A stretch of 16,539 nt of DNA from a bacterium (GTDB lineage: Bacteria > UBA9089 > JASEGY01). This document shows positions 550-16,539 of this stretch, in pieces (position 1 is the first letter of the stretch; each line of letters begins with the position of its first letter). The position numbers and the translations under genes are program-made. The stretch is taken from contig JASEGY010000033.1 in the NCBI GenBank assembly GCA_030019105.1, positions 1-16,539 on the forward strand. The letters are read 5' to 3'. A model generated the notes under the pieces. That model ran no database searches, was not told the origin of the DNA, and was given only the letters and a program-made list of their open reading frames with translations.

Positions 550-558
550 AATTGAATA
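550..558. repeat. Left 9-bp target-site duplication of the MITE
   Basis: AATTGAATA directly precedes the left terminal inverted repeat and is repeated exactly at 709-717 directly after the right one. A perfect 9-bp duplication at both borders is what transposition with a 9-bp stagger leaves. Families such as IS4 and IS1 make duplications of about this size. Confidence 0.85.
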
Positions 559-708
559 GGGTGCAGATACTCTCCGCTACCATCAACAAATCTGCCCTAT
601 TTACCCCCAAATTTCTGCAAATAAACAGGGTAATTTAGCACAAATCGCCCTGTTTGAAACCCGTTTTACCCCAAATGCTTGGGTCAGTAGCGGAGAGTAA
701 CTGCACCC
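559..708. mobile_element. 150-bp MITE-like non-autonomous transposable element
   Basis: Terminal inverted repeats of 22 bp lie at 559-580 (GGGTGCAG through CTCCGCTAC) and 687-708, differing at one position (A versus T in the ninth base). A perfect 9-bp target duplication AATTGAATA flanks the element (550-558 and 709-717). An internal 8-bp hairpin, AAACAGGG (623-630) with CCCTGTTT (648-655), lies between them. No transposase is encoded, so movement would need an enzyme acting in trans. The element sits immediately upstream of the ribosome binding site of the giant gene, so the insertion has separated that gene from its original upstream sequence. The parent insertion-sequence family cannot be named from the ends alone. 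Confidence 0.85.
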
Positions 709-717
709 AATTGAATA
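709..717. repeat. Right 9-bp target-site duplication of the MITE
   Basis: This is a second exact copy of AATTGAATA. Its last base is the first base of the AAGGGAGG ribosome binding site, and its TAA (716-718, completed by the next base) is the in-frame stop that bounds the giant gene upstream. Confidence 0.85.
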
Positions 718-733: not shown

Positions 734-868
734 ATGAATAACCAAAAGAATAACCAAAAGTATTGGAACAAGAGGAGACCCGGATCGTATCTCATAAGTC
801 TCCTCTTATTTTTTATCTTATTCTGGGTGGGGTCAGTTCTCCTCCCAGTCGCCCGGCATGTATTTGCT
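734..868 (+). other. Signal peptide, residues 1-45
   Basis: A long basic N-region (K5, K9, K13, R14, R15) precedes a hydrophobic core from about Y19 to V39 (SYLISLLLFFILFWVGSVLL). The probable signal peptidase I site is after A45 in HVFA-A. Cys47 follows, but the preceding FAA is a poor lipobox, so a lipoprotein is unlikely. The N-region begins with a perfect 12-base tandem repeat (737-748 and 749-760) coding NNQK twice. The product is expected to leave the cytoplasm by the Sec route. Confidence 0.85.
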
Positions 869-3800
869 GCCTGCGCCACAGTTACCTTCGACCGCCAATT
901 ATCCGGGGATAAAGTAGGCCAGCATAAGGTTCCTCCCACTGTGCCAATAGATATAACTGTCAGCGCCGAAGTCTCCTCTTCGGTTACCAGCGCCTCTCTG
1001 ATAGACTACTTCCCTGAGGATTGGACCATACTCGATGCCGGTGGAGGGACAGTAGATCCGGTTGCCCGCACCATCACCTGGTCGGTGGGCGATGTAACTA
1101 CTACCGTATCCAGATCCTACACCATCTTTAGCCCTGAAAGGACTACCCCGTCTACTAAATATTATTTCCACTCAGAATTGCATTTCTATAACAAGTGTAC
1201 AGAGACAAGTAGCGATTGGATGGTAATCGTAGCTGATCCGACCTGGTACGTGGAAGGTAATAGCCCTTACCTGGCCCTGGACAGCAATACCCCATGTGTT
1301 GATGGCCCTGAAATAGCTACGCTTTCGGCAACCGTGACTAACACCGGAGCTACCACGCTGACTAATGCGACCCTAAGTATAAGCTTTGGCGCTTCTTCAC
1401 CAAACAGTCTAATCCTGAGTTTAACCTCAGGAGATCAAGCTGTCAGGTATATTGCTGATCTTGACCCGGGTGATACTTACACTGCCTACTGGTTTGTTAC
1501 TTATCCCCGTTGTGATGCCGGAGACAATGGTTATTACAACGAGAGCTATCCCTATACCTTCACCTTTGATGCCGATAATGCCACGCCAGAGACCAGGAAT
1601 TTAACTATAACCTCTCAGAACGAAATCAGTGCTTCCGCTAATCAGATAAATGCAATTACTCTCTCTACTTCAGCGCTGTCGATCGGTCAGACTTTTGATG
1701 TTGTGGTAGATTATACTCTCGGCCAAATTGGTCAGGATGGTGATGCCTGGCTGCAACCAGTGGGCAACTCGACTTTTGATCCCTCAATGGTCAGATTGAT
1801 CCGGGCCAAAGCAACTCTCAACGGGATTTCTCAACCTGATAATCAACTATATTTCACCGGGTGGAAAAATAACAACGTCAGCGGAACGGTTGCCTATACC
1901 TTTATCGGGATAGGCCCTGGGAGCACTTCCATAAGCCCTTATCAAGAAGCTGCCTCTGGCGCTCAACAAAAGTACACCGGTAATTTTGGCGGCCCTGCGG
2001 TTACCGCCACTCCAAGCTTCACTAATACCTTAACCCTTGATAAATCTACGGACAAAGGCATTGCCCCCCCCGGAGATACTTTAGCCTACACTATTACCTA
2101 CGGTAACACCGGAAGTGATCCCCTCGGTGGTCCGGCCACTAATTCCTCAGTTGTAATAATTGATACCATTCCGGCTAACACAACTTATGTGGCGGGCAGC
2201 GCGGGCAGCGATACTATCTCGGCTACCATCTATTGGTCAACCGATGGAGGCAGCGCCTGGGTTGGAACCGAGCCTGCTCCTGCTTCGGTAACCCATATCA
2301 AGTGGGTGCTTGACGATGTAGTCCCGCCGAGCACCGACCCGGCCGGTTCAGTAGGCTTCCAGGCAACCATTAATACCGGCGTTAGTGAGTGGACTATTAT
2401 TCTTAACACCTGTGATATTGGTATTAATAACGGTTCTCCAGTGGGCAGTGATTCCACCAGCACCACGGTCAGGCTTCCGGATGGGGTTATGATCTCCAAG
2501 ACAGATGGCAAGACTTTAACTTCAGCAAGCGATACCCTGACCTACACCATCACCTACCAAAATACCGGCGATGCTGCGGCGATAGGCGTAGTCATCACCG
2601 ATACTATTCCAACCGACACTACCTTTTCCTCGGCTTCTGACGGAGGAACCGAATCCGGTGGAGTAGTCACCTGGAACATTGGCACTCTTGATGCAGGCGT
2701 CCAGGATTCGGTCACCCTGACCGTAGTCGTCAATGATACCGCCTCCCCTGGAACAAAGATCGTCAACACCGCCACCATTGCTGACAATGGCTTAGACTCG
2801 GATACGACCAATAACTCCCAGACAGATACCGACACCGTGGTTAATCCTCAACCGGATGTAACTATCACCTCCAAGACGGATGGCACGTCTACAGCCTCAC
2901 CGGGCGACACCCTGACCTACACCATCACCTATGAAAATATCGGCACCACTGGGGCTGTCGGCGTGGTCATTACCGATGTTGTTCCAACGAACACTACCTT
3001 TTCCTCGGCTACTGGCGGAGGGGCCGAATCCGGTGGGATGGTCACCTGGAACATTGGCGCCCTTGCCACAGATGGCCCCCATACGGCCACTGTTACCGTA
3101 GTAGTCGATGACCCCCTGCCCCAGAGAACAACTAATATCATCAATACAGCCAACATTGCCGACGATGGATCAGACTCGGATCCGACCAATAATTTTCAGT
3201 CCGATGTCGATTCTGTGATTGATAAAGTGGATGTGACTATCACCTCCAAGACAGATGGCACGGCTACAGCCTCGCCGGGTGACACCTTAACCTACATTAT
3301 TACCTACGAAAACACGGGTGGGGTCGGCGCCAATGTCTATTATGTCCGGCCTGATGGAAATAACTCTAACTCCGGGACCGGTTCTTCAGCTTCCGAGGCA
3401 TGGCAGACTATAGATTATGCTGCCTCAACTATAGGGCCAGGTGATATGGTCTATGTTGCCCCGGGAACCTATAATGAATTGGTCACTATAGATAATAGCG
3501 GCTCCTCGGGCAACCGTAGCTATTATATCGCGGATACCAACGGCTCAAAATTTTCTGACATCTCAGCCGGAGATGTAATTGTTGATGTCCAAAATAGCCG
3601 TAATTACTGTTTTTATCTCCTCGGGAAAAATTATATTACCATAGATGGATTTACAGTGAGAAATGGGGCGGGTACCTGGAGTAATGCCGATATCCATATT
3701 GCGAATTCAGACTATATTGAGGTGTATAATTGTACTGCTTCTGGAGGAAGCAACAAGGGAATAGTAGTGAAAGGAGATTCGGATAACTGTCTTATCTCTG

Positions 3801-6800
3801 ATTGTGAAATTAATGGAACCGGATATAGCTTCAGTGTAGAGGGTACCAGTAATGACTGCATCATCAGGCGGTGCAAAATTCACGATATCCCTGATGAGGG
3901 AATTACTATCTGGCATGGTTCAAATGGGAATTATAATACCATCGTCGAGAACTGTATTATTTACAATAATGAGGGGAACGGCGGTATTGAAATTGGTGGT
4001 AATTCTGATGGGAGTATAATAAGAAATAATACCCTGGTCAATAACGATGCTACTGGCTATGGAAATCTGAATAACAAAGGTGATAACACCATTTGTTTTA
4101 ATAATATCTTTGATAATGGTGCCAATATAACTATAACTACTACGGGAAGCAATTTCAGCTCTGACTACAACTGTATCCGGGGGACTACTTCTGGGTATAC
4201 TCCGGGGGCCAACGACCTGACTGGTACCAACCCAGACCTTGATGCCAGTTATCATCTTAATTCTACTTCTCCCTGTAGAGATTCAGGCGCTGATACTTTC
4301 AGCGGCCAGAGCGCCCCTTCGGAGGATATAGATACAGGTCCAAGACCATATAATAGTGGCTATGATATAGGTGCGGATGAATATGGGGCTAGTGCCCTCC
4401 CTGGTTCCTCCACTGCCGCCACCGGCGTGGTCATCTCCGATACCATCCCAACGAACACTACCTTTGTCTCGGCCAGTGATACAGGGACCGAATCCGGTGG
4501 AGTAGTTACCTGGAACATTGGCACCCTTGAAACAGGTGTTCAGGATTCGGTCACCCTGACCGTAACAGTCAATGATACCCTGCCCGCAGGGACAGCGAAT
4601 ATCGTCAATACCGCCACCATTACCGACGATGGATCAGACCTGGACCCGACTAATAATTCCGGGACAGATACCGACAGCGTGTTTGCTCAACCGGATGTGA
4701 TTATCACCTCCAAGACAGATGGTACGGCTACAGTCTCACCAGGCGATACCCTGACCTACACCATCACTTACCAGAACACGGGTGAGATCGGCGCCACCAG
4801 TGTGGTCATTACCGACACGATTCCAACCAATACCACCTTTTCCTCGGCTTCTGGTGGAGGGACATTATCCGGTGACACGGTCACCTGGACCATTGGCACC
4901 CTGGAAGTAGATGGCCCCCATCAGATCACCCTGACCGTGGTCGTCAATGATCCTCTACCCGGGGGGACGAAGATCGTCAACACAGCCACCATTGGAGACG
5001 ATGGCTCAGACTCGGATCCGACTAATAATTCCCAGACAGACACCGACACCGTAGTTGCTCCTCAACCGGATGTGACTATGACCTCCAAGACAGATGGCGC
5101 GGATACAGCCTCACCAGGCGATACCTTAACCTACACTATCACCTACGAGAATACCGGCGATGCTGGGGCTGCAAGCGTAGTCATCACTGATACCATTCCC
5201 ACGAACACCACTTTTGTCTCGGCTCATGGAGGGAGTGAATCCGGTGGGGTGTTTACCTGGAACATTGGCGCTCTTGATGCGAATGATTCCGGCCAGGTCA
5301 CCCTAACCGTAGTCGTTAATGATACCCTGCCCTATGGAACAACCAATATTGTCAACATCGCTACCATTGTTGACGATGGCTCAGATTCGGATTCGACCAA
5401 TAATTCCGGGACAGATACCGACACCGTGGTAGCTCAACCGGATGTGACTATCACCTCCAAGACAGATGGCACGGCTACGGCCTTACCAGGCGATACCCTG
5501 ACCTACACCATCACTTACGAAAATACAGGGGAGATCGGCACCACCGGCGGAGTCATCACCGATACCATTCCAACTAACACCACCTTTGCCTCCTGTAGTC
5601 CGGGAACGAGCAGTCAATCAGGACAAGTCCTTACCTGGAACATCGGCAACCTTGCAGTAGATGGCCCGCATACGATTACCCTGACCGTGGTCGTCAATGA
5701 TACCCTGCCCTACGGGACAGCGAATATCGTCAACATCGCTACTATTGCCGACGATGGCTCAGACTCGGATGTGACTAATAATTCCGGGACAGATACCGAC
5801 ACCGTGGTTGCTTATCCGGATGTGACCATCATCTCCAAGACAGACGGCACGGCTACGGCCTCCCCAGGCGACACCCTGACCTACACCATCACTTATCAGA
5901 ACACGGGCGAGATCGGCGCCACCAGCGTGGTCGTCACCGAGACCATCCCAACGAACACCACCTATGTCTCAAACACTGGCGGAGGAAGCTATTCCGGTGG
6001 GGTGGTTACCTGGACCATCGGCACTCTGGAAGCAGACGGCCCCCATCAGGTCAGCGTGACTGTAACAGTTAATAATCCTCTGCCCCAGGGAACAACGAAT
6101 ATCACCAACACCGCCACTATTGCCGACGATGGCTCAGACTCGGATCCGGCCAATAACTCTGCCACCGATACCGACAGCGTGGATGCTCAACCGGATGTGA
6201 CTATCACCTCCAAGACAGATGGTGCGGATACGGCCTCACAGGGTGATACCCTGACCTACACCATCACTTACCGGAACACGGGTGAGATGAACGCCACCGG
6301 TGTAGTCATCACCGACACTATTCCGACTAACACAACCTTTGTTTCGGCCTCTGCTCCAGGGTCTGAATCCGGCGGGGTGGTCACTTGGAACATTGGCTCC
6401 CTGGGAGTAGATGGTTCTCATCAGGTCACCCTGACCGTGGTGATCGATAATTCTCTGCCCCAGGGGACAACCAATATTGTCAACACCGCCACTATTGCCG
6501 ACGATGGCTCAGACTCGGATGCGACCAATAACTCCGGGACAGATACCACCTCCGTGACTGTTCAACCGGATGTGAGTATCACCAAGACAGATGGCCGGAG
6601 GAAGGCCTGGCCAGGCAGTACTCTGATCTATAACATCACCTACGAGAATATCGGCGATACTGGGGCTGTCAGCGTGGTCATCACTGATACCGTTCCGGAC
6701 CACACCAGCTTTGTCTCAGCCACGGAACCATATAATATAGTCTCTGAGGTGGTCACCTGGAACATTGGCTCCCTTGATGCAAATGATTCCGGTCAGGTCA

Positions 6801-9800
6801 CCCTGACCGTAGTGGTTGATGTTCCCCTGGCCGAAGGGACGGATATCTACAATACCGTCACCATTACCGACGATGGTTCAGACCCGGATCTGAGCAATAA
6901 CTCCTACACAGATATCGACCTGGATCCTCAACCGGAGGCCAGGTTTACCGATTCAAGCTGGACAGAGGTAATTTTTTATCAGGTCTGTGATAATGTCTAT
7001 ATCGAGGTCGTAGATGAGCCGGGTCAGGATACTATTACTATCACCCTTTACAGTTATGACTCTTCAGACACAATTGATGCGGAAACAGTAACACTGACCG
7101 AAGACCTGGTGGAGACCGATGTATACAGGGGGTCTATCTCCACTTGCTACCACTATGCCGCCGCTGGTTGTCCCCTCGGATATGACAATGGCATCCTCTC
7201 GGTCAACCCCTTTGATGACCCGGGAACGAAACAGTGGATCGAATATACCTATAAGGCCATCACACCCTCAGCAGATTTCCGCCGGCCCAATCTTGCCTTC
7301 CCCACTGTCCCGGGTACCGAATGGGTTACTCCTGCCTCGCTTAATGTTTGTCAAACAGATGGTGAATTCAGACTCACCTTTTTGAATAGCGGTCAGGACA
7401 CGGCTTACGATGCAGTCATCGTCATTGATACCCTGCCCGACGGATATAGCTATGTCCCTGGCTATGGCAAGATTATTTCCAATGATAATCCGACCGGATA
7501 TGCCGTTGAGCCGGATACTACTTCAGTTCCCGGAGACTGGATATGGAATTATGATGGATTGGACGGTAATCCCATCTGGGACATTGCCTCCGCTGATACC
7601 CGCACCCTGGTCTTTGCCCTCACCCCGAGCTGCAACTCTCCGGAAGCGAGCGAAATATGGTTCAGGACTTACTTTCGCATAGGGAGTTGTGCGACCGCCC
7701 TTGATCTTACTGGTGATGACCAGAACGGCAACAACTTCCAGGCGGTAAGTATAACCGTTAACCAGGCAAGTTTAAGCCTGACCAAGACGGCTATTGAGCT
7801 CAACGGCAGTTCCATTACCCCCACCTCTTCGCCTACTGCCTCGCCAGGCGATGAGATCACCTGGTTGATTACGGTTTCCAGCAATGGGGATACGGCTCCC
7901 TTAGTTAATGTTGAGGTCACTGACACCCTTGGGGCAGGTCTGACTTATGTAGCCGGCAGTTCCATCGCCGATGATTCTGATACGAAGCATCTGGTCTGGA
8001 CAAGCGCTCAGGAATCCGGTCTGGCCTCTATCGATCCTGGCGACACGGTCGGCCTCACCCTCAAGACCCTCGTAGGTTGTGCCGGACTTTCCAACAATGT
8101 CTCAGCTACCTGGGGATGTGATGAAAACAACGACTGTCAATCAACTGATGTGACGGCTGTAGCCAGCGTTACCCTTGATCCGCAGGGGCCGGACCTTGCC
8201 TTTAATCCACCTAACTTTAACTTCAGTTACTGTTATGATATTGATACTTACACTATTACTATTCAAAACAACGGCGGCGCTTATGCCCGTAATATCACCC
8301 TGATAGGTTCAGGGCTTTCTTCTTATTTAACCCTTACCAATGTATCTCCTTCCGGAAGCTATGATTCTCCTTCCCAAACCTTTACCTTGCCCGATCTTGC
8401 CCCTGGAGATACGGTGGAAATCACCTTTACCGCTGCCCCGCTGAATGGCTGGTGTAGTTGGTCCGGTCTCCAGCCGACAAGAATAGTAAATTGGACACTC
8501 AACTACTACAATGGTTGTAATAATTCCTTTAGCAAGACGGACTCATCTAACATCACTATTAGCCCTCAATCTACCCTCACCGTAACCAAGTCATCTAACC
8601 CCACCATTGAGATGTATCTGGGGGAGACGATCCAATATACCCTGACTGTCGATTACAATGGCACAACTTCCTGCCCGGGGCCATCTACTCAGGTCAGCGT
8701 AACTGATACTTATCCTAATGGTTTTACTGTCCTTGATGCAGATGGAGGAAATACAGACACACCAGGGATTATTACCTGGTCATATACCCCGGATGGTGTT
8801 ACTTCATGGGTAAAGACCGTCCTGCTTCAAGCTCCGCCCTATGATGAATGCGAAACATACGCCCAGACCTATGCCTACAACTATGTCTATGCTTCTCTAA
8901 CTGATTGCTGTGGTTGTTTCCTCTCTGATCAAGACAGCACCATGATTGCCTTAGAAGCTGAGGAATTTTTTACCTCAGAGCGAACACCTTATGCGACCAC
9001 CTTCCAGAAATGTTCATCCATAGATTTTGCTAATACCTACAGCTTTGACAACAGCAGTGTCTGGGATACAGTTAACTGGAGTGATATGATATTTTATGAG
9101 TCAGGGGCCAACAATATGGACTTTGTCGCGGGAAGCCTTAGTATTACTGTTGATAGTGGCACTCAAGACTGCACCATCTCCGGCCAAAACTTTAGTGATA
9201 CCACCTTTGTTCATGAGATTATTACCTATTACTATGAATTTGATTTTCCTGCTGACTGTGATGCCATCCCTGTCAAAGGTTCCACCATGGTCATTACCTA
9301 TCAGATGCAGGCTACTGACACCTCTTCACCAGGCTGTGATACTTCCTACTCCTTCTACGACTGGTCAACCCTCGATGTAGGCGTAGATTTGACCGGTAAT
9401 TGTTATGACGCAGACAGATATATTGAAGAAACCACCTATCTCACCCTCCAGAATCCTGATATGTACCTCACTGTCTCTGACCACACCATGGATGAATGTG
9501 ATACTACCACTGTCACTATTAATATCACCAAGACACCTTCTTCTTTAGCTGCCTATGATGTCCGGGTACAGCTTAACATGGGCAATTACGCTCGTATTTC
9601 TGATTTTAGTTACCCTGTTGGCCCTACCCCTACCTGGAATGATCCTTACCTTGAATACGGCGATGCCTTTGGCGTTGATACGAATAGCGCCCAGATCACC
9701 TTTGATCTGGAAAGATACTGCACCTCCTCAGGCGGAATCTCGGCCACTGTCTATTACGATGACTTGTGCAATAATGATGATCCTGATAGTTATGATCAGA

Positions 9801-12800
9801 TGTGTTCGTACTCTGATAATATGGTAGTCACCCTCCAGGATGGGGATCTCTCCATTATAGTCAGTCCTGACCCTATCATCATCACGGCTGATACGGTTGC
9901 CTGGACGGTTTACGCCTACAATAACGGAGTTGGGGCCATCCAGAATGTGGATATCCACGATACCCTGGGCAGCGGCTACTCTAATATGACTTATCAAATT
10001 ATTGACCACACTGGTTCTCCGGCGGCAGCAGATGGCTATGATACATTAGCTGCCGGAATACACGAACTCCATATTCGCATCCATGAGATCCCTGGTAACA
10101 GCAACTGGCAGATTCGGTTTACGGCTGATGTGGATGCATGCCAGGTCGGCGAACTTGAGAATCGTATTATCCAGGCCTTCTGGAGCTGTCACCCCACCAG
10201 TGACGCCTGTGAAACTGAAATCGCTACTCCGAGTATCACTCAGGCGATCCTGCGTGAGCCGTCACTTTATATAAAAGTTCAGCCCATCCCTACTTCGGTC
10301 AGTGCCATTAATATCTGTGGTACCCAGGATTTTCAGTTAATTATCCGCAATGACGGCCCAACATATAACTACGATGTTGTGTCCACGGCTTCTTTCATCC
10401 CCGGCCAACTGGACTATATCTCAGGAAGTGCGGTCATCACTAAAAATGGCTCTTCTATTGATTCGCCAACCCCCCATAATCCGACTGTCGTTCCAGGGGT
10501 TGGTCTTGTCTGGGACCTTTCTACCTGGGGGATTGATGACCTGGCCCCGGGAGATGAAATAATTATCAATTTTGATATAGATGTAGACTGTAGCTATGTA
10601 ACCAGCCAACTACTCCCGGAGGCATCTTACCTTGAACCCTGTGGCCAGGCCGGCACAGTCAGCGCCTATGGCCGGTATATAGCCGCTACTACCCCGGATT
10701 TAACCGTAGACAAGACCATCAATCCCTTCCCTGGCAAGCCAGGCCCTACAACCTGGACTATCAGGCTTTTCAACCAGGGGAATGGTGTCACCGACCGGAT
10801 CGTGGTTATTGATACCCTGCCCAGTTATATGTATTACACGGGTTCAAGTGAACCACCTTATTCCGGTAATATTGGAGATACGGTAATTACCTGGGTTTTT
10901 GATCGGCCGGACAGCACCATCAATCCCGGCAGTGCTTACGAATTTACTGTTACCGCCACTATGGATGACTGTCCCCCGCCGGCTTCCGCTAACGAGCCTA
11001 ATACAGCGGCAGCCATAGTGGGGTGTAAGGGTGCCGGAGAAAATGACTTTGAATGTATCATTAGCATTACCAAGGATTTTGATGCGTCTTCTCCCTATTG
11101 GAGCATCGGAGGGTCCAATCCGGACAGCTTCAGTGTCACTCAAACCATCGGCTCAACCACCTCCTGTGACACCGATGCTGCCTGGGTGTTATTATTTGAA
11201 AATAATGACGAAGTTGATGGCAAAGCCCCTATTACTATCTATGACACCTTACCGTCCGGGGTGGAATATGTCAGTTCCACCGTAAGCCATGATACCGGCA
11301 GTGGGTGGACACCAGTCAGCCCTGATTCAATCGACACCTCTACCCAGACCATTATCTGGAGCCTCTCAAGCACTGATCTTGCCGCCGGTGAGAAACTGAG
11401 GGTTGATCTGGTAGTGCGGAGTAACTGTGGTTTTGCCGGCGGGACGAATTCTATCTCTCTTAAGATTTTCAACTGTATTGGCACCGAGTATACACTACCT
11501 ACAGATGGCCCGGACACAGCCACTGTTTCTGATCCAGGCGAATCCGACATCTCGGTGACTAAAACCCCGACAGATACTCAAGATCCCTTTCCCGGCCGGG
11601 TCGGCTCAAGCAGGGCATGGACTATTAGTATTTCCAATAGTGGAGACGCGGCCACCGACCGGGTCGTGGTCACCGATACCTTGCCCAGGTATATGTCGTA
11701 TGCAAGTTCAAGTGAAGGGCCCTACAGTGTAGACAGTTCCGGAACCCGGACTGTCGTTACCTGGGTCCTTGATCGACCGGATAGCACCGTCGCTGTCAGC
11801 GGGTCTTATCAATTTACCCTCACCGCCAATATGGCTGAATGTCCTGCGGCAGCTTACGCTGATGAACTAAATGAGGTTAAAGCTGTGAACGGATGTAGGG
11901 ATGACGGAGATACGGAGCTTAGATGTATTGTTGATACTGCCTCGGACTCTGATGAGGCTACCCCCTATTGGAACATTGGAGAAGTCGATTCAGACAGCTT
12001 CAGTGTCACTCAAACCACTGAAAATCCCGTCTACTGTGATACCGATGCTGCCTGGGTGCTATTATTTGAAAATAACGACGAAGTTGATGGCAAAGGCCCC
12101 ATCACTATCTATGACACCTTACCGGCCGGGGTGGAATATGTCAGTTCCACCGTAAGCCATGATACCGGCAGTGGGTGGACACCAGTCAGCCCTGATTCAA
12201 TCGACACCTCTGCCCCGACTATTAGTTGGACCCTTCCCTCAGGGACTAATCTTGACGCCGGCGATAAACTGAAGGTTGATCTGGTGGTGCGGACTAACTG
12301 TAATTTTAACGGCGGAACAAATTATACCTCCCTTACTCTTTACAACTGTCTTACTCCACCTGAATTCTATTCACTGCCTGTGGATGGTCCTGATACTCAA
12401 ACAGTAACAGGGGATAATACCCCTCCGGATTTGTCTGTAGATAAGTTCAGTAAAGATACCACCTATTTTGCCGCGGAAGATACGGTTGCCTGGACCATTA
12501 CCGTCACTAATAGCGGCACTCCAACCAGCCGCACCATCATTATTGATACCCTGCCGGATTTTGTAACTTATAATATTTACTCTGTTACCAGCGAACATAG
12601 CTTGAACTGGATTACTTCTCCGACCGGCGCCCCGGGTGAGGTCCTGCAATGGGTAACTGACTCGTCAATAATAAACGGCTCTCCGCTAACCCTTACTTTA
12701 ACCGGCGATGTAACCTGTAACGATTCGACCACACCGAATGTGGTCCAGGTACTGACCGGTTGTCCTGACCTGGATGATACCACGGCAATCAAATATGTGT

Positions 12801-15800
12801 GTGAGGTGGATGTTGAATCCGATTCCTCGACTCCCTACTGGCAGGTAGCCGAGTATCATCCGGAAGATTTTGCGATTACGCAAAACCTGCCTGCGTTCGG
12901 ATATTGTGATACCGGGACCTTTACCTTAACCTTTGAGAATAAAGAAGATATTGGCGATATAACTGCGTATGGAGCAATTACTTTGACCGATACACTACCG
13001 GCCGAGTTGTTCTATATCGAGACGGTTTCGATTATCCATACCGATTCTACAGGCGCGACTACCCCAATTACCGCTACCGATAGCCCGGCCCAGGAGGCAG
13101 AAGGGCTGCTAAGCTGGATTCTGCCGGGAACTTTGGACCTGTCGCCAGGAGAAACTATTGCCCTGACCTTTAATGTCGGCAGCAGATGTGACTTTGCCGG
13201 CGGTCAGAACAATGTGCGGTTCACTGCCCACACTTGCTTTGGCGATACATATTCGCTGCCTGCTGCCGGGCCGGACACAGATAATGTGCCTGATGCTGCA
13301 GGAATGCCCAACATTTCTGTTGAGAAAATCCCGGCCACCTTTGATGCCGAAGGACCCAATACCTGGACCATCAGGCTAACCAATACCGGAACTGCCGCCA
13401 CTGACCGCACCATTGTGACTGATACCCTGCCGGATTATGTTACCTCCTATTCTGCCGGCCCCACCTGGACAACCGAAGAGGTGATCGGTGGGGATACGGT
13501 TCTCACCTGGGTAATTAACACCCCGATTGCGAGTGGCGGAGGAACCTTTGATATTAACTTCTCAGGCACTATCAGTTGTATCCACACGGATGAGGCCAAC
13601 ACGGTTTCAGTCGTAACCGGCTGCGCTGATCTGTTTGATTCGATGGCCTTGTATTGCGTAGTTAATAGTGATAGTGACGTCTCTACTCCTTATTGGGTCT
13701 TGAAAGAGACTGATATCTCCATTGTCCAGACCCTTCCTCCGGAAATCCAGGTCTGCACCCTCCATGATGGAAGTGACTCCGATACCTTTGTCATTACCTT
13801 CACCAATCTTAGCCCAGCGGAGACAAACAATGAGAGCATCACCGGTTATTCCCCGATCACCATCACCGATACCCTGCCCCAGGGGATAACTTATGTCTCC
13901 GGTTCGACTACCATTATCTGGACCGGAGAAGCAGACTGGACGACTAATCCGGCTACTACCGGCAGCGGAGTAGCCGGTGATACGCAGATCCTGGTCTGGA
14001 CCTTGCCTTACAATTTTGATCCACAGGATGTTATCTCAGTTACCTTCAAGATTGAAAACCCCTCTTCATTAAGCTGTGAGGACTTCCCTGAGTTGTCACA
14101 AAACACGGTTGGCATCCGGATGCATCCCTGTGACGGTGGGGACACTTATGGCTTTTCCAATACCTCTTCTAACATCCAGAAATTAGACCCCAACCTCTCC
14201 ATCACCAAATCAGTCGTAGATACTAATGCCACCGGTCGTGATCCAACCAATGCCTGGCTTATCCCTGGCGATACAGTAGCCTACACCATTACTGTCACCA
14301 ACAGTGGTGACGGCGAGGCCAGAAATGTGACCATTACCGATACCCTGAGTAATTATCTCCATTTTACCACTGAATCCCATTCTGCTGGTGACACCTTTGA
14401 AGGGTATACCGGTGGATATAACGACGGCAGTTGTTCGTGGACTATCGCCCGGATACTTCCTGCCGGAGGGACGGCCACGGTTACCCTTTATGCCACGGTC
14501 CTGCACGATCTTTACGGTGACAACTCTTCGGAACCGGATATGCCTGACGGCACTGTCATCACCAATGCGGCCGGCAGTCTGACCGCAACCGATGCCTGCT
14601 GCCCTGACGTAGTTGACACCGGGGCATTAAGCCTTGATGTTGAAGCCCCTTATGTCTGGGTAGAAAAACACCTGATTAACCCAGCCCCGCCTGACGTTCC
14701 CTCTGTGGGTGATCTAATAACCTTTAGAATTGACTACGGCAACACTGGCTCCAGCACCGCCTACGATATAGTCATTACCGATACCCTGCCTGGCGGACTT
14801 CAGTATGTCTCTGGTGGCAACTGGGATGGAAGTGTCATCACCTTTGCTGACGAATTCATTGAGCATGGTAGTGTCGGCAATCCGGGCTGGCTTGATCCCG
14901 GAGAAACCGCCTCGGTTTATTGGCAGGCTAATATTGTTTCTGCCCCCATAGGTGGAATAAACAACATCGCTGTCCTTGATCATCAAGATGATAACGGCAA
15001 TCCCAGGGAGCAAATCTCTGACACTGAATCCTTCTCGGTGTTTGTCCTTGATCTGGAAAAATCTGCTCCAGCAACAGCCGCCCCGGGAGATGCGATTACC
15101 TTCACTCTCACTATCGTCAATGACTCCTCTGACTCGATCTCCAGTTTGAACCTGACTGACACCTTACCAACCTGGGTCTCTTTCGTGTCCGCCAGTGATG
15201 GTGGCGACTATGATACATCTGCCCACACCGTCTACTGGCTCCTTGGCACTATCCACCCTCAGAGCAGCCGGGTAGTCACAATTGATGTCCTTGTCTCAGA
15301 AACGGCACCCGACCAGACCGTCCTTCAAAACAATGCCACCCTGGTCTATAGCGGTGGCACGATAGATGCCTCTTCCAGTACCACTGTTGGAGGGGCCGTT
15401 ATACTGGAGGTAAACAAACATGCCTCCTGCTATCCGGGCACTACTTGTACCCTTCAGCCAGGCGATACCTTCAGCTACACTATCCGCTATGAAAACATTG
15501 GTTCAGGTATAGCTAAAATAATCATTACCGATACCCTCCCGGCCGATGTGACTTATATCGAGGACAATTCCAGTTATTCCCATACCAATGTCGGGCAGGT
15601 CTACACCTGGCCTGATGTCTCCTCAGAAACCTATTCTGCCGCCGGATTTACCGTGGGATACTTTACCGTCACTGTCCGGCTCAACGATACTGTTACTCTC
15701 GGCAAGCTCTTCACCAATGAGGTCACCCTGAGTTATTGGGATAAGGGTAATGGCACCTTCTTTGGGACGTTATATGATTCGCTGACTTTAAGAACCTCTG

Positions 15801-16539
15801 CTTCCATTCCGGCTGCCCCCATTCAGATTCAGAAAGTCTCTACCACGCCGGTGGTCAATGCCGGCGACCCGGCCGGCTATATCCTGACCGTAACCAATAC
15901 CGGCACCTCAGACCTTGATAATATTGTCGTGAGGGACACCTTCCCCTCCGGCATAACATACAACCCAACCTATCCGTCTGTCCCGGCTGCAACCAATAGC
16001 CCCAGCAGCGGAGACACAATTTTAGTCTGGAACTTCACTACCTCAGCCGATCTACCGGACACCCTCCATCCAGGAGAATCAAGACAGATTCAAGTCACCG
16101 GCGTTGCTGATATTAGTGCCTCAGGAACCCTGGCCAATCAAGCTACGGCAGACGCCCTTGACATCTACGGCGTTCCGGTTGAGCAGGCCGCCGATACCAC
16201 CAGCGTGGTTGTTCTCACACCAACCCCAGCTTTACAGATCGAGAAGGTTACTTCTACCTCAGTGGTTAGCGCCGGTGATTCCATCACCTACATCTTAACT
16301 ATCAAGAACTACGGCAGCCAGTTAATCGACAATATTACCGTAACCGATACCATCCCGGCCGGCCTGGACTATGTCCGCTCAGAGCCGGCTCACAGCGGAA
16401 TCAATGGCCAGGCGGTGAGCTGGACGATCACCTCACTGGCCCGGGGAGAAGAAAGACAGATACAGGTAACGGCGGCTACGACCATTGATGATTCCGGCAG
16501 CTACATTAACCCGGCCAGCGTTTACGGCCAGGATGAGAA
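734..16539 (+). CDS. Giant secreted multi-DUF11 surface protein with nested beta-helix domain (3' end outside window)
   Basis: One uninterrupted frame encodes at least 5,268 residues; no stop is reached. The start is fixed by AAGGGAGG at 717-724 and an in-frame stop at 716-718. Order of parts: signal peptide (1-45), unique N-terminal region (46-432), one divergent DUF11 module (433-582), nine similar tandem DUF11 units (583-2067) of which the third contains a 363-residue right-handed beta-helix (867-1229), a non-DUF11 beta domain (2068-2196), divergent cysteine-rich modules (2197-3321), four paired-module super-repeats (3322-4486) and six canonical DUF11 modules (4487 onward). DUF11 modules (family knowledge) are Ig-like beta-sandwiches found in very long bacterial and archaeal cell-surface proteins. 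I infer an exported adhesin, fibre or sheath protein. No catalytic motif is evident. The anchor type (sorting signal, Por tail, S-layer domain) cannot be judged because the C-terminus is missing. Confidence 0.93.
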   Translation, partial: MNNQKNNQKYWNKRRPGSYLISLLLFFILFWVGSVLLPVARHVFAACATVTFDRQLSGDKVGQHKVPPTVPIDITVSAEVSSSVTSASLIDYFPEDWTILDAGGGTVDPVARTITWSVGDVTTTVSRSYTIFSPERTTPSTKYYFHSELHFYNKCTETSSDWMVIVADPTWYVEGNSPYLALDSNTPCVDGPEIATLSATVTNTGATTLTNATLSISFGASSPNSLILSLTSGDQAVRYIADLDPGDTYTAYWFVTYPRCDAGDNGYYNESYPYTFTFDADNATPETRNLTITSQNEISASANQINAITLSTSALSIGQTFDVVVDYTLGQIGQDGDAWLQPVGNSTFDPSMVRLIRAKATLNGISQPDNQLYFTGWKNNNVSGTVAYTFIGIGPGSTSISPYQEAASGAQQKYTGNFGGPAVTATPSFTNTLTLDKSTDKGIAPPGDTLAYTITYGNTGSDPLGGPATNSSVVIIDTIPANTTYVAGSAGSDTISATIYWSTDGGSAWVGTEPAPASVTHIKWVLDDVVPPSTDPAGSVGFQATINTGVSEWTIILNTCDIGINNGSPVGSDSTSTTVRLPDGVMISKTDGKTLTSASDTLTYTITYQNTGDAAAIGVVITDTIPTDTTFSSASDGGTESGGVVTWNIGTLDAGVQDSVTLTVVVNDTASPGTKIVNTATIADNGLDSDTTNNSQTDTDTVVNPQPDVTITSKTDGTSTASPGDTLTYTITYENIGTTGAVGVVITDVVPTNTTFSSATGGGAESGGMVTWNIGALATDGPHTATVTVVVDDPLPQRTTNIINTANIADDGSDSDPTNNFQSDVDSVIDKVDVTITSKTDGTATASPGDTLTYIITYENTGGVGANVYYVRPDGNNSNSGTGSSASEAWQTIDYAASTIGPGDMVYVAPGTYNELVTIDNSGSSGNRSYYIADTNGSKFSDISAGDVIVDVQNSRNYCFYLLGKNYITIDGFTVRNGAGTWSNADIHIANSDYIEVYNCTASGGSNKGIVVKGDSDNCLISDCEINGTGYSFSVEGTSNDCIIRRCKIHDIPDEGITIWHGSNGNYNTIVENCIIYNNEGNGGIEIGGNSDGSIIRNNTLVNNDATGYGNLNNKGDNTICFNNIFDNGANITITTTGSNFSSDYNCIRGTTSGYTPGANDLTGTNPDLDASYHLNSTSPCRDSGADTFSGQSAPSEDIDTGPRPYNSGYDIGADEYGASALPGSSTAATGVVISDTIPTNTTFVSASDTGTESGGVVTWNIGTLETGVQDSVTLTVTVNDTLPAGTANIVNTATITDDGSDLDPTNNSGTDTDSVFAQPDVIITSKTDGTATVSPGDTLTYTITYQNTGEIGATSVVITDTIPTNTTFSSASGGGTLSGDTVTWTIGTLEVDGPHQITLTVVVNDPLPGGTKIVNTATIGDDGSDSDPTNNSQTDTDTVVAPQPDVTMTSKTDGADTASPGDTLTYTITYENTGDAGAASVVITDTIPTNTTFVSAHGGSESGGVFTWNIGALDANDSGQVTLTVVVNDTLPYGTTNIVNIATIVDDGSDSDSTNNSGTDTDTVVAQPDVTITSKTDGTATALPGDTLTYTITYENTGEIGTTGGVITDTIPTNTTFASCSPGTSSQSGQVLTWNIGNLAVDGPHTITLTVVVNDTLPYGTANIVNIATIADDGSDSDVTNNSGTDTDTVVAYPDVTIISKTDGTATASPGDTLTYTITYQNTGEIGATSVVVTETIPTNTTYVSNTGGGSYSGGVVTWTIGTLEADGPHQVSVTVTVNNPLPQGTTNITNTATIADDGSDSDPANNSATDTDSVDAQPDVTITSKTDGADTASQGDTLTYTITYRNTGEMNATGVVITDTIPTNTTFVSASAPGSESGGVVTWNIGSLGVDGSHQVTLTVVIDNSLPQGTTNIVNTATIADDGSDSDATNNSGTDTTSVTVQPDVSITKTDGRRKAWPGSTLIYNITYENIGDTGAVSVVITDTVPDHTSFVSATEPYNIVSEVVTWNIGSLDANDSGQVTLTVVVDVPLAEGTDIYNTVTITDDGSDPDLSNNSYTDIDLDPQPEARFTDSSWTEVIFYQVCDNVYIEVVDEPGQDTITITLYSYDSSDTIDAETVTLTEDLVETDVYRGSISTCYHYAAAGCPLGYDNGILSVNPFDDPGTKQWIEYTYKAITPSADFRRPNLAFPTVPGTEWVTPASLNVCQTDGEFRLTFLNSGQDTAYDAVIVIDTLPDGYSYVPGYGKIISNDNPTGYAVEPDTTSVPGDWIWNYDGLDGNPIWDIASADTRTLVFALTPSCNSPEASEIWFRTYFRIGSCATALDLTGDDQNGNNFQAVSITVNQASLSLTKTAIELNGSSITPTSSPTASPGDEITWLITVSSNGDTAPLVNVEVTDTLGAGLTYVAGSSIADDSDTKHLVWTSAQESGLASIDPGDTVGLTLKTLVGCAGLSNNVSATWGCDENNDCQSTDVTAVASVTLDPQGPDLAFNPPNFNFSYCYDIDTYTITIQNNGGAYARNITLIGSGLSSYLTLTNVSPSGSYDSPSQTFTLPDLAPGDTVEITFTAAPLNGWCSWSGLQPTRIVNWTLNYYNGCNNSFSKTDSSNITISPQSTLTVTKSSNPTIEMYLGETIQYTLTVDYNGTTSCPGPSTQVSVTDTYPNGFTVLDADGGNTDTPGIITWSYTPDGVTSWVKTVLLQAPPYDECETYAQTYAYNYVYASLTDCCGCFLSDQDSTMIALEAEEFFTSERTPYATTFQKCSSIDFANTYSFDNSSVWDTVNWSDMIFYESGANNMDFVAGSLSITVDSGTQDCTISGQNFSDTTFVHEIITYYYEFDFPADCDAIPVKGSTMVITYQMQATDTSSPGCDTSYSFYDWSTLDVGVDLTGNCYDADRYIEETTYLTLQNPDMYLTVSDHTMDECDTTTVTINITKTPSSLAAYDVRVQLNMGNYARISDFSYPVGPTPTWNDPYLEYGDAFGVDTNSAQITFDLERYCTSSGGISATVYYDDLCNNDDPDSYDQMCSYSDNMVVTLQDGDLSIIVSPDPIIITADTVAWTVYAYNNGVGAIQNVDIHDTLGSGYSNMTYQIIDHTGSPAAADGYDTLAAGIHELHIRIHEIPGNSNWQIRFTADVDACQVGELENRIIQAFWSCHPTSDACETEIATPSITQAILREPSLYIKVQPIPTSVSAINICGTQDFQLIIRNDGPTYNYDVVSTASFIPGQLDYISGSAVITKNGSSIDSPTPHNPTVVPGVGLVWDLSTWGIDDLAPGDEIIINFDIDVDCSYVTSQLLPEASYLEPCGQAGTVSAYGRYIAATTPDLTVDKTINPFPGKPGPTTWTIRLFNQGNGVTDRIVVIDTLPSYMYYTGSSEPPYSGNIGDTVITWVFDRPDSTINPGSAYEFTVTATMDDCPPPASANEPNTAAAIVGCKGAGENDFECIISITKDFDASSPYWSIGGSNPDSFSVTQTIGSTTSCDTDAAWVLLFENNDEVDGKAPITIYDTLPSGVEYVSSTVSHDTGSGWTPVSPDSIDTSTQTIIWSLSSTDLAAGEKLRVDLVVRSNCGFAGGTNSISLKIFNCIGTEYTLPTDGPDTATVSDPGESDISVTKTPTDTQDPFPGRVGSSRAWTISISNSGDAATDRVVVTDTLPRYMSYASSSEGPYSVDSSGTRTVVTWVLDRPDSTVAVSGSYQFTLTANMAECPAAAYADELNEVKAVNGCRDDGDTELRCIVDTASDSDEATPYWNIGEVDSDSFSVTQTTENPVYCDTDAAWVLLFENNDEVDGKGPITIYDTLPAGVEYVSSTVSHDTGSGWTPVSPDSIDTSAPTISWTLPSGTNLDAGDKLKVDLVVRTNCNFNGGTNYTSLTLYNCLTPPEFYSLPVDGPDTQTVTGDNTPPDLSVDKFSKDTTYFAAEDTVAWTITVTNSGTPTSRTIIIDTLPDFVTYNIYSVTSEHSLNWITSPTGAPGEVLQWVTDSSIINGSPLTLTLTGDVTCNDSTTPNVVQVLTGCPDLDDTTAIKYVCEVDVESDSSTPYWQVAEYHPEDFAITQNLPAFGYCDTGTFTLTFENKEDIGDITAYGAITLTDTLPAELFYIETVSIIHTDSTGATTPITATDSPAQEAEGLLSWILPGTLDLSPGETIALTFNVGSRCDFAGGQNNVRFTAHTCFGDTYSLPAAGPDTDNVPDAAGMPNISVEKIPATFDAEGPNTWTIRLTNTGTAATDRTIVTDTLPDYVTSYSAGPTWTTEEVIGGDTVLTWVINTPIASGGGTFDINFSGTISCIHTDEANTVSVVTGCADLFDSMALYCVVNSDSDVSTPYWVLKETDISIVQTLPPEIQVCTLHDGSDSDTFVITFTNLSPAETNNESITGYSPITITDTLPQGITYVSGSTTIIWTGEADWTTNPATTGSGVAGDTQILVWTLPYNFDPQDVISVTFKIENPSSLSCEDFPELSQNTVGIRMHPCDGGDTYGFSNTSSNIQKLDPNLSITKSVVDTNATGRDPTNAWLIPGDTVAYTITVTNSGDGEARNVTITDTLSNYLHFTTESHSAGDTFEGYTGGYNDGSCSWTIARILPAGGTATVTLYATVLHDLYGDNSSEPDMPDGTVITNAAGSLTATDACCPDVVDTGALSLDVEAPYVWVEKHLINPAPPDVPSVGDLITFRIDYGNTGSSTAYDIVITDTLPGGLQYVSGGNWDGSVITFADEFIEHGSVGNPGWLDPGETASVYWQANIVSAPIGGINNIAVLDHQDDNGNPREQISDTESFSVFVLDLEKSAPATAAPGDAITFTLTIVNDSSDSISSLNLTDTLPTWVSFVSASDGGDYDTSAHTVYWLLGTIHPQSSRVVTIDVLVSETAPDQTVLQNNATLVYSGGTIDASSSTTVGGAVILEVNKHASCYPGTTCTLQPGDTFSYTIRYENIGSGIAKIIITDTLPADVTYIEDNSSYSHTNVGQVYTWPDVSSETYSAAGFTVGYFTVTVRLNDTVTLGKLFTNEVTLSYWDKGNGTFFGTLYDSLTLRTSASIPAAPIQIQKVSTTPVVNAGDPAGYILTVTNTGTSDLDNIVVRDTFPSGITYNPTYPSVPAATNSPSSGDTILVWNFTTSADLPDTLHPGESRQIQVTGVADISASGTLANQATADALDIYGVPVEQAADTTSVVVLTPTPALQIEKVTSTSVVSAGDSITYILTIKNYGSQLIDNITVTDTIPAGLDYVRSEPAHSGINGQAVSWTITSLARGEERQIQVTAATTIDDSGSYINPASVYGQDE
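869..2029 (+). other. Unique N-terminal region with Ig-like and cohesin-like modules, residues 46-432
   Basis: The mature protein starts with a cysteine-containing beta-rich segment. It carries a DUF11-like strand pattern (SLIDYFPEDWTILDAG, then TITWSVGDV) and a motif SPERTTPSTKYYFHSEL followed by SDWMVIVADP near residues 137-178. A second module (about 190-290) has the TATLS-like pattern ATLSATVTNTGATTLTNATL and LDPGDTYTAYW. A third (about 297-425) begins NEISASANQ and contains LSIGQTFDVVVDY and GTVAYTFIGIGPGS, resembling cohesin or Ig-like folds that bind partners. These assignments rest on pattern only. Their position after the signal peptide suggests that this is the free, distal end of the protein. 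Confidence 0.55.
2030..2479 (+). other. Divergent first DUF11 module, residues 433-582
   Basis: The module starts LTLDKSTDKG and shows the DUF11 core: PGDTLAYTITYGNTG, then VVIIDTIPANTTYVAGS. It is longer than the following units because of insertions around SDPLGGPATNSS and WSTDGGSAWVGTEP. An eight-C tract at 2064-2071 encodes A-P-P just before the PGDT motif. In place of the NTATIADDGS ending of later units it has NTCDIGINNGSPVGSDS. Confidence 0.75.
2480..6934 (+). repeat. Nine tandem DUF11 units of about 375 bp
   Basis: Unit starts, at the D of the DVTITSKTDG motif, are 2480, 2855, 3230, 4694, 5069, 5441, 5819, 6194 and 6569. Lengths are 375, 375, 1464, 375, 372, 378, 375, 375 and 366 bases. 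The 1464-base unit is 375 plus a 1089-base insertion. Each unit reads DVTITSKTDG, ASPGDTLTYTITYxNTG, VVITDTIPTNTTF, GGVVTWNIGTL, LTVVVNDTLP, NTATIADDGSDSDPTNNS, TDTDTV. The acidic loop DDGSDSD resembles calcium-binding loops, which is inference. Long stretches are identical between units at the DNA level, pointing to recent expansion or gene conversion. Apart from one Cys at 5594-5596 (unit 6) and those in the inserted domain, I saw no cysteine. Unit 9 is the most diverged (RRKAW, HTSF). Confidence 0.93.
3332..4420 (+). other. Right-handed beta-helix domain nested in DUF11 unit 3, residues 867-1229
   Basis: The segment opens with the classic leader VYYVRPDGNNSNSGTG, then AWQTIDYAAS, GPGDMVYVAPGTY and IDNSGSSGNRSYYIA (family knowledge: DUF1565 and parallel beta-helix proteins of the pectate-lyase-like fold). 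Rungs of about 22-26 residues follow, with a repeating x-N-C or x-D-C corner: YNCTASGG, SDCEING, RRCKIHD, ENCIIYNNEG, RNNTLVNND, FNNIFDNG. It closes with the usual ending SDYNC, NPDLDASYHLNSTSPCRDSG and YDIGADEY. No catalytic set of a known lyase is obvious, so carbohydrate binding is as likely as cleavage. It is longer than a whole DUF11 unit, lies in a loop between two strands, and is more A/T-rich than its host repeats. A linker SALPGSSTA joins it back. Confidence 0.9.
6935..7321 (+). other. Non-DUF11 beta-rich domain between repeat arrays, residues 2068-2196
   Basis: The DVTITSKTDG spacing ends here and a different sequence begins: EARFTDSSW, NVYIEVVDEPGQDTITITLYS, then AETVTLTEDLVETDVYRGSIS. 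The last motif resembles an Ig-like repeat common in large bacterial surface proteins, with a consensus like ETVTLTETGxxTGVFxGSI. It ends with KQWIEYTYKAITPSADFRRP. It contains several cysteines, unlike the preceding array. I infer a boundary domain between the homogeneous stalk and the cysteine-rich half. Confidence 0.6.
7322..10696 (+). other. Run of divergent, cysteine-rich DUF11-like modules, residues 2197-3321
   Basis: Probable module starts are 7322 (TFLNSGQDTAYDAVIVIDTLP), 7772 (SLTKTAIEL, VNVEVTDTLGAGLTYV), 8192 (YTITIQNNGGAYARNITL), 8570 (TLTVTKSSNP, VSVTDTYPNGFTV), about 8960 (FFTSERTPYATTFQKC), about 9458 (YLTVSDHTMDECDTT), 9845 (VAWTVYAYNNGVGA, VDIHDTLGSGY) and 10262 (CGTQDFQLIIRNDGPTYNYDV). 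The DTLP signature decays in several of them and the modules from 8960 to 9840 hardly show it, so boundaries are approximate. Most carry two to six cysteines, for example the CCGC cluster near 8909. Aromatic residues are frequent. I infer disulfide-stabilised Ig-like domains exposed outside the cell. Confidence 0.65.
11256..11341 (+). repeat. 86-bp identical repeat, copy 1 (partner at 12126-12211)
   Basis: This block encodes the segment starting SGVEYVSSTVSHD and running through GWTPVSPDSIDTS. It is base-for-base identical to 12126-12211, exactly 870 bases downstream. Similarity continues at a lower level upstream to about 11123. It is in-frame and would support deletion or duplication of 290 residues by recombination. 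Confidence 0.9.
12126..12211 (+). repeat. 86-bp identical repeat, copy 2 (partner at 11256-11341)
   Basis: Second copy of the block, 870 bases after the first, within super-repeat 2. Immediately after it the copies diverge (TACCCAG versus TGCCCCG), which marks one edge of the identity tract. Confidence 0.9.
14192..16539 (+). other. Run of canonical DUF11 modules cut by the window end, residues 4487-5268
   Basis: Six modules can be read, starting at 14192 (NLSITKSVVD, VAYTITVTNSG, VTITDTL), 14651 (YVWVEKHLIN, IVITDTLPGGLQYV), about 15044 (VLDLEKSAPA, LNLTDTLPTWVSFV), 15401 (ILEVNKHASC, IIITDTLPADVTYI), 15821 (IQIQKVSTTP, IVVRDTFPSGITY) and 16232 (LQIEKVTSTS, ITVTDTIPAGLDYV). They match the general DUF11 consensus better than the cysteine-rich half and contain few cysteines. 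The last two resemble each other (PVVNAGD and SVVSAGD). The sixth continues beyond the window, so further repeats and any cell-wall anchor lie downstream. Confidence 0.88.

Follow-up and report, generated by a model that had tools for sequence, protein, structure and literature searches.

The window, a stretch of bacterial DNA of 16,539 nucleotides, is contig C320 of a metagenome-type genome that comprises 4.34 Mb in 1053 contigs (G000). It contains an open reading frame on the plus strand (734..16537), which encodes at least 5268 amino acids and runs off the contig end, and its product is a giant, probably fibrillar surface protein. In an array of nine DUF11 units, the third unit of this protein is interrupted by 363 residues that, judged from their profile match and their modelled fold, are a complete right-handed beta-helix domain. 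It is regarded as probable that this unit is a split, covalently clamped stalk domain of the CLIPPER type, which holds a PL9-like beta-helix sideways as a glycan-binding or glycan-cleaving head.

Architecture of the split unit

The protein starts with a signal-peptide-like stretch, read by eye from the translation, which is followed by an N-terminal region, the nine DUF11 units (residues 584-2067) and many more DUF11-type domains. A Pfam analysis of the first 1349 residues detected DUF11 (PF01345) with an E-value of 3.8e-50, and the DUF11 matches were situated around a Beta_helix match. The start-to-start spacings of the array units were 375, 1464, 375, 372, 378, 375 and 375 nucleotides. Unit 3 has 488 residues versus 124-126 residues in seven of the eight other units; unit 9 has 122 residues, its end having been placed by script and set by hand. 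The intact units 1 and 2 occupy positions 2483..3232 and the intact units 4 to 9 positions 4697..6934, also on the plus strand.

The original prediction, made from the sequence alone, held that unit 3 is too long by exactly 1089 nucleotides, or 363 codons, in frame, and that removal of the excess restores a normal unit. Both statements were confirmed by the unit spacing, which equals that of the neighbouring units when the insert is subtracted. The insert (3332..4420, residues 867-1229) separates an N-terminal half of unit 3 (3233..3331, residues 834-866), which comprises the predicted strands A and B and contains Lys839, from a C-terminal half (4421..4696, residues 1230-1321), which extends from strand C onward and contains Asp1236 and Asn1292. 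The C-terminal half alone scored 54.2 bits against the DUF11 cut-off of 24.6. It started at position 31 of the model; among the 142 DUF11 matches listed for the genome, from 150 scored candidates out of 164, no other started beyond position 20. Many of these matches were found in frames of 1000-5500 residues. The genome also yielded 29 Beta_helix matches, many of them in frames of this length, pointing to a wealth of giant repeat proteins.

It had also been claimed that the four bases GCCA are present at both borders of the insert. This is exactly the case in the window (3329-3332 and 4418-4421), and it leaves the insert ends uncertain by about one codon, but at the left border in the related genome G001, which is described below, the bases are GCTA. 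The repeat is weak evidence because it is part of an alanine codon and is absent from the left border of the relative; its interpretation as a target-site duplication was rejected, as it is not kept in G001.

A predicted covalent clamp around the insert

DUF11 has recently been renamed CLIPPER and is described as a CnaA-like stalk domain, often with an isopeptide bond between Lys and Asn; this bond, with its Asp, is absent from some members (PMC12617251). When the family residues given in that paper are applied to the split unit, the predicted isopeptide lysine, Lys839 (codon 3248..3250), is located before the insert, while the predicted catalytic aspartate, Asp1236 (4439..4441), and the predicted isopeptide asparagine, Asn1292 (4607..4609), are located after it, with normal spacing when the insert is subtracted. 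The triad and its spacing were found in all nine units, with Glu replacing Asp in unit 7, and the triad of the split unit is also kept in G001.

The earlier proposal that the insert lies in a loop between two strands was borne out: it occupies the turn at residues 32-36 of the unit, between the predicted strands 22-31 and 37-45, and this is predicted to be the B-C turn of the host. The predicted host fold is the nine-strand, CnaA-like beta-sandwich of DUF11/CLIPPER domains. The structure prediction that had been proposed as a check agreed in part: by its strand borders the insert emerges from the B-C turn, but the confidence for the host was below that for an intact unit.

The isopeptide residues on either side of the split, which the original prediction did not mention, suggest a likely mechanism for it. 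The chain would first form strands A and B of a CnaA-like CLIPPER unit and exit via the B-C turn; about 363 residues would then fold into the complete PL9-like beta-helix before the chain returns to complete the host sandwich. The CLIPPER isopeptide bond would join Lys839 of the first piece to Asn1292 of the second, with the aid of Asp1236, and would clamp both pieces around the inserted helix; this bond and closure of the host fold are both inferred. Given where Lys and Asn are situated, a pulling force would be expected to pass from strand A via the covalent bond to a late strand and to bypass the helix. The helix would then be a side-mounted head that binds, and perhaps cleaves, a polysaccharide.

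Several observations weigh against this interpretation. The split host was predicted with lower confidence (means of 10-residue blocks of 42-82), and in its model the first strand was shortened, one late strand was shifted and the last strand was absent. Integrin domains fitted equally well in the fold comparison, and sequence searches for the CLIPPER structure 9IFR gave no match. With the region downstream of the array, no insert-free orthologue was found among 19 genomes of the phylum; this region matched two of them, G000 and G001, and both carry the insert. In addition, the C-terminus of the protein is lost at a contig end in both genomes.

The inserted beta-helix, its conservation and the surroundings of the gene

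Within the insert, residues 917-1066 (3482..3931) matched the right-handed beta-helix family PF13229 with 42.4 bits against a cut-off of 25.9. The tail of the insert (insert residues 307-351, 4250..4384) was similar to choice-of-anchor Q domains, with 23.4 bits, slightly below the curated cut-off of 25. The predicted structure has the PL9 fold and most resembles PL9 lyases and further carbohydrate-active beta-helices; among solved structures, lyases and glycoside hydrolases come closest. The insert had been ascribed the full landmarks of a stand-alone protein, and indeed there are free-standing relatives (P0004 and P0005), the mature chains of which begin, as read by eye, with YYVR or WYVR.

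For PL9, the catalytic Lys273 and the calcium ligands Asp209, Asp233 and Asp237 have been described (PMC10992409). These residues could not be placed reliably in the insert by the A1 profile alignment to Pel9A. As we read A1, the insert is gapped at this coil, and by eye a GFKLGGN-like motif has the form GIEIGGN. The A4 profile did not retrieve Pel9A, but did match other beta-helix enzymes. Judged from the modelled fold, glycan binding is the likeliest function of the head; given that no PL9 site could be recognised, cleavage is the less likely one.

The base composition of the insert differs from that of the array. The earlier hand counts of G and C were exact (22 of 60 bases at 4021-4080, 34 of 60 at 5041-5100), and the GC content of the whole insert is 0.433 versus 0.532 and 0.541 in the array on either side. 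At third codon positions (GC3) the values are 0.388 versus 0.58 and 0.60, and the insert is also lower than the longest frames of 12 beta-helix loci of its own genome, which have GC3 values of 0.504-0.647 (L092-L103, on eight contigs, the window gene itself included). However, the GC content of the insert in G001 is as low (0.417), and the related C17 gene of G001 has a GC3 value of 0.42, so that a foreign origin of the insert is unproven by its low GC content.

A search with the insert alone, as had been suggested, retrieved 38 proteins. The best of them, P0003, has an insert that is 81% identical over its full length and situated at the identical point of a DUF11 unit. The same gene is present in G001; no further genome of this genus or family was among those compared. 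In G001 the signal peptide is immediately followed by the split unit, and the array of the relative contains a run of N soon after it (L083, G001:C1:56000-74116). Since a second genome carries the insert at the same site, chance is excluded. By the NG86 method, the ratio of nonsynonymous to synonymous substitution rates (dN/dS) amounted to 0.249 in the insert, where 296 of 365 aligned columns are identical and dS is 0.43. It was 0.153 and 0.190 in the two host halves of unit 3 and 0.245 in 3224 columns further downstream (dS 0.65; 0.40-0.82 by block). By these ratios, the insert and the host halves are under purifying selection, and the insert does not differ in this from the remainder of the gene. 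A 16-row tree grouped the two inserts as sisters (100/99), with weak support for the deeper forks around the free-standing proteins. One insertion in the ancestor of both species, retained since, is the simplest reading; capture by recombination, as suggested in the original prediction, may be how the insert was acquired.

The N-terminal region of the window protein matched 4 of the 19 phylum genomes and had no match in G001. Its best match outside its own genome, with 33% identity, is part of a 9835-residue frame from a different family of the phylum (L133, G007:C17). Beta-helix inserts in other DUF11 arrays were not detected: of the 38 proteins that matched the insert, PF01345 is listed for P0003 alone. 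A BLASTP comparison of the insert with 42 proteins, the window's own included (1106 candidates scored, E up to 1e-3), recovered only the latter and, as a weak match, P0078, a protein with no listed DUF11 domain. A further search (7994 candidates scored) yielded 10 proteins, with PF01345 listed for none of them; these searches covered lengths outside the range of 635 to about 907 residues. In P0042 and P0045 the best beta-helix match is N-terminal to the DUF11 array.

Alternative origins of the arrangement were weighed. The original prediction had named an assembly chimera as its refutation. In such a case, a free-standing beta-helix gene would have been merged with the repetitive array when the metagenome reads were assembled. 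The fragmentation into 1053 contigs, the repetitive array and the run of N in the array of the relative are compatible with such an error, but the genome of a second species has the same junctions with an insert of 82% identity, purifying selection extends across them, and a search of the window's own genome for a second copy of the insert was negative. A chimera is therefore very unlikely. Instead of an insertion, a gene that ended in a half-unit could have been fused to one that started with a beta-helix, and the position of the G001 split unit directly behind the signal peptide as well as the domain order of P0042 and P0045 would fit such a fusion. Nevertheless, this is quite improbable: the two halves align to one unit with zero residues lost or gained, the triad spacing is 34 and 90 after subtraction of the insert, and the same turn would have to be hit from both sides by chance.

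Two other explanations accept the insertion and concern its function. The beta-helix might fold but bind nothing, and would then be a passive spacer or decoy in a host unit that is a tolerated broken domain. The lack of a recognisable canonical PL9 site and the drop in host-domain confidence in the split model are in line with this, but selection on the insert and on both host halves, together with the retention of the isopeptide triad in both genomes, makes it unlikely. That the split unit is, on the contrary, an active polysaccharide lyase, and the fibre a tethered enzyme, draws on the solved lyase and glycoside hydrolase folds nearest to the insert; as the profile alignment did not recognise the PL9 catalytic residues, this is considered doubtful.

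A miniature inverted-repeat transposable element (MITE)-like element of 150 bases is located at 559-708 (window 550-717), a short distance before the start codon (734). It has the inverted ends GGGTGCAG and CTGCACCC and a 9-base target duplication, AATTGAATA. Seven other near-full-length copies with 97-100% identity are present in the same genome, and other 9-base duplications were seen by eye at the three copies with flanks that were read. At one further locus (L143, G000:C422:500-2700) element-related ends 1.8 kb apart flank a transposase-like open reading frame of 474 residues, which is a possible driver of the MITE; its closest NCBIfam family is ISKra4, with 193.4 bits, below the cut-off of 205. 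Positions 293-499 of the window contain nested inverted repeats with arms of 24-39 nucleotides, two of the three pairs being of ACACGGAT-like words.

Comparison with known split and stalk domains

The D3 domain of RrgA is its von Willebrand domain. In this Streptococcus pneumoniae protein, D3 is inserted into D2, Lys191 is part of the first piece of D2 and Asp600 and Asn695 are part of the second, and the isolated pieces weld covalently and spontaneously (PMC5333627). The window unit likewise has Lys before and Asp and Asn after the inserted domain, but RrgA is a pilus tip protein with another cargo, whereas the head of the window protein is a beta-helix in a DUF11 array. In D2 of Mfa5 from Porphyromonas gingivalis, a von Willebrand domain lies between strands B and C; the first segment provides Lys111, the second provides Asp432 and Asn518, and Lys111 is bonded to Asn518 (PMC7835359). 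According to the same source, RrgA and GBS104 each have a von Willebrand domain, and the two N-terminal strands and the bond are at identical positions in Mfa5, GBS104 and RrgA. Like D1/D2 of Mfa5, the window unit is split, by its predicted strands, in the B-C turn, with Lys before and Asp and Asn after the split; unlike Mfa5, a fimbrial tip protein with a von Willebrand cargo, it carries a beta-helix in a DUF11 array. Because of this cargo, the unit would work like the set of von Willebrand-headed split isopeptide domains without being a member of it.

It could be speculated, with less than even confidence, that CnaA-like isopeptide domains generally accept cargo in their B-C turn. Unrelated heads, namely the von Willebrand domains of Mfa5 and the streptococcal adhesins and the PL9-like beta-helix of the window, would have entered this port independently, as the bond between Lys and Asn bridges the insertion and leaves the cargo outside the load path. 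If so, many more split CLIPPER units with unfamiliar heads should exist across bacteria and archaea, and they could be found as Lys and Asn halves separated by an insert.

Ligand-binding domains that bud sideways from split Ig-like domains have been described for the giant RTX adhesins (PMC12077191, PMC10865825), and the window protein is also giant, with a head proposed to project from a split stalk domain. The adhesins differ in that their cargoes are sugar-binding, RTX or vWFA domains and that they use type I secretion; the word isopeptide is absent from the main text of PMC12077191. In ComZ of Thermus thermophilus, the sheet of a fibre protein accommodates a beta-solenoid, but there the host has a pilin fold with the site between its final two strands, and the protein binds DNA (PMC6561018). 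Among the literature matches listed, in which subscription papers are thinly covered, no beta-helix nested in a split isopeptide or DUF11 domain was found.

The host fold and the Lys-Asn isopeptide residues are shared with the CLIPPER domain of PDB entry 9IFR, which is uninterrupted, and no split CLIPPER is described in the parts of that paper used here (PMC12617251). The split CLIPPER unit suggests a route by which a repetitive stalk may gain a head without loss of strength, and the split triad would be a sequence rule for heads hidden in giant surface proteins of uncultured bacteria. A clamped natural mount for a beta-helix of 363 residues might also become a part for protein engineering, as the split RrgA domain already has (PMC5333627). 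A split isopeptide domain with a head is of a known kind, while the beta-helix cargo and the host in a CLIPPER array appear to be new.
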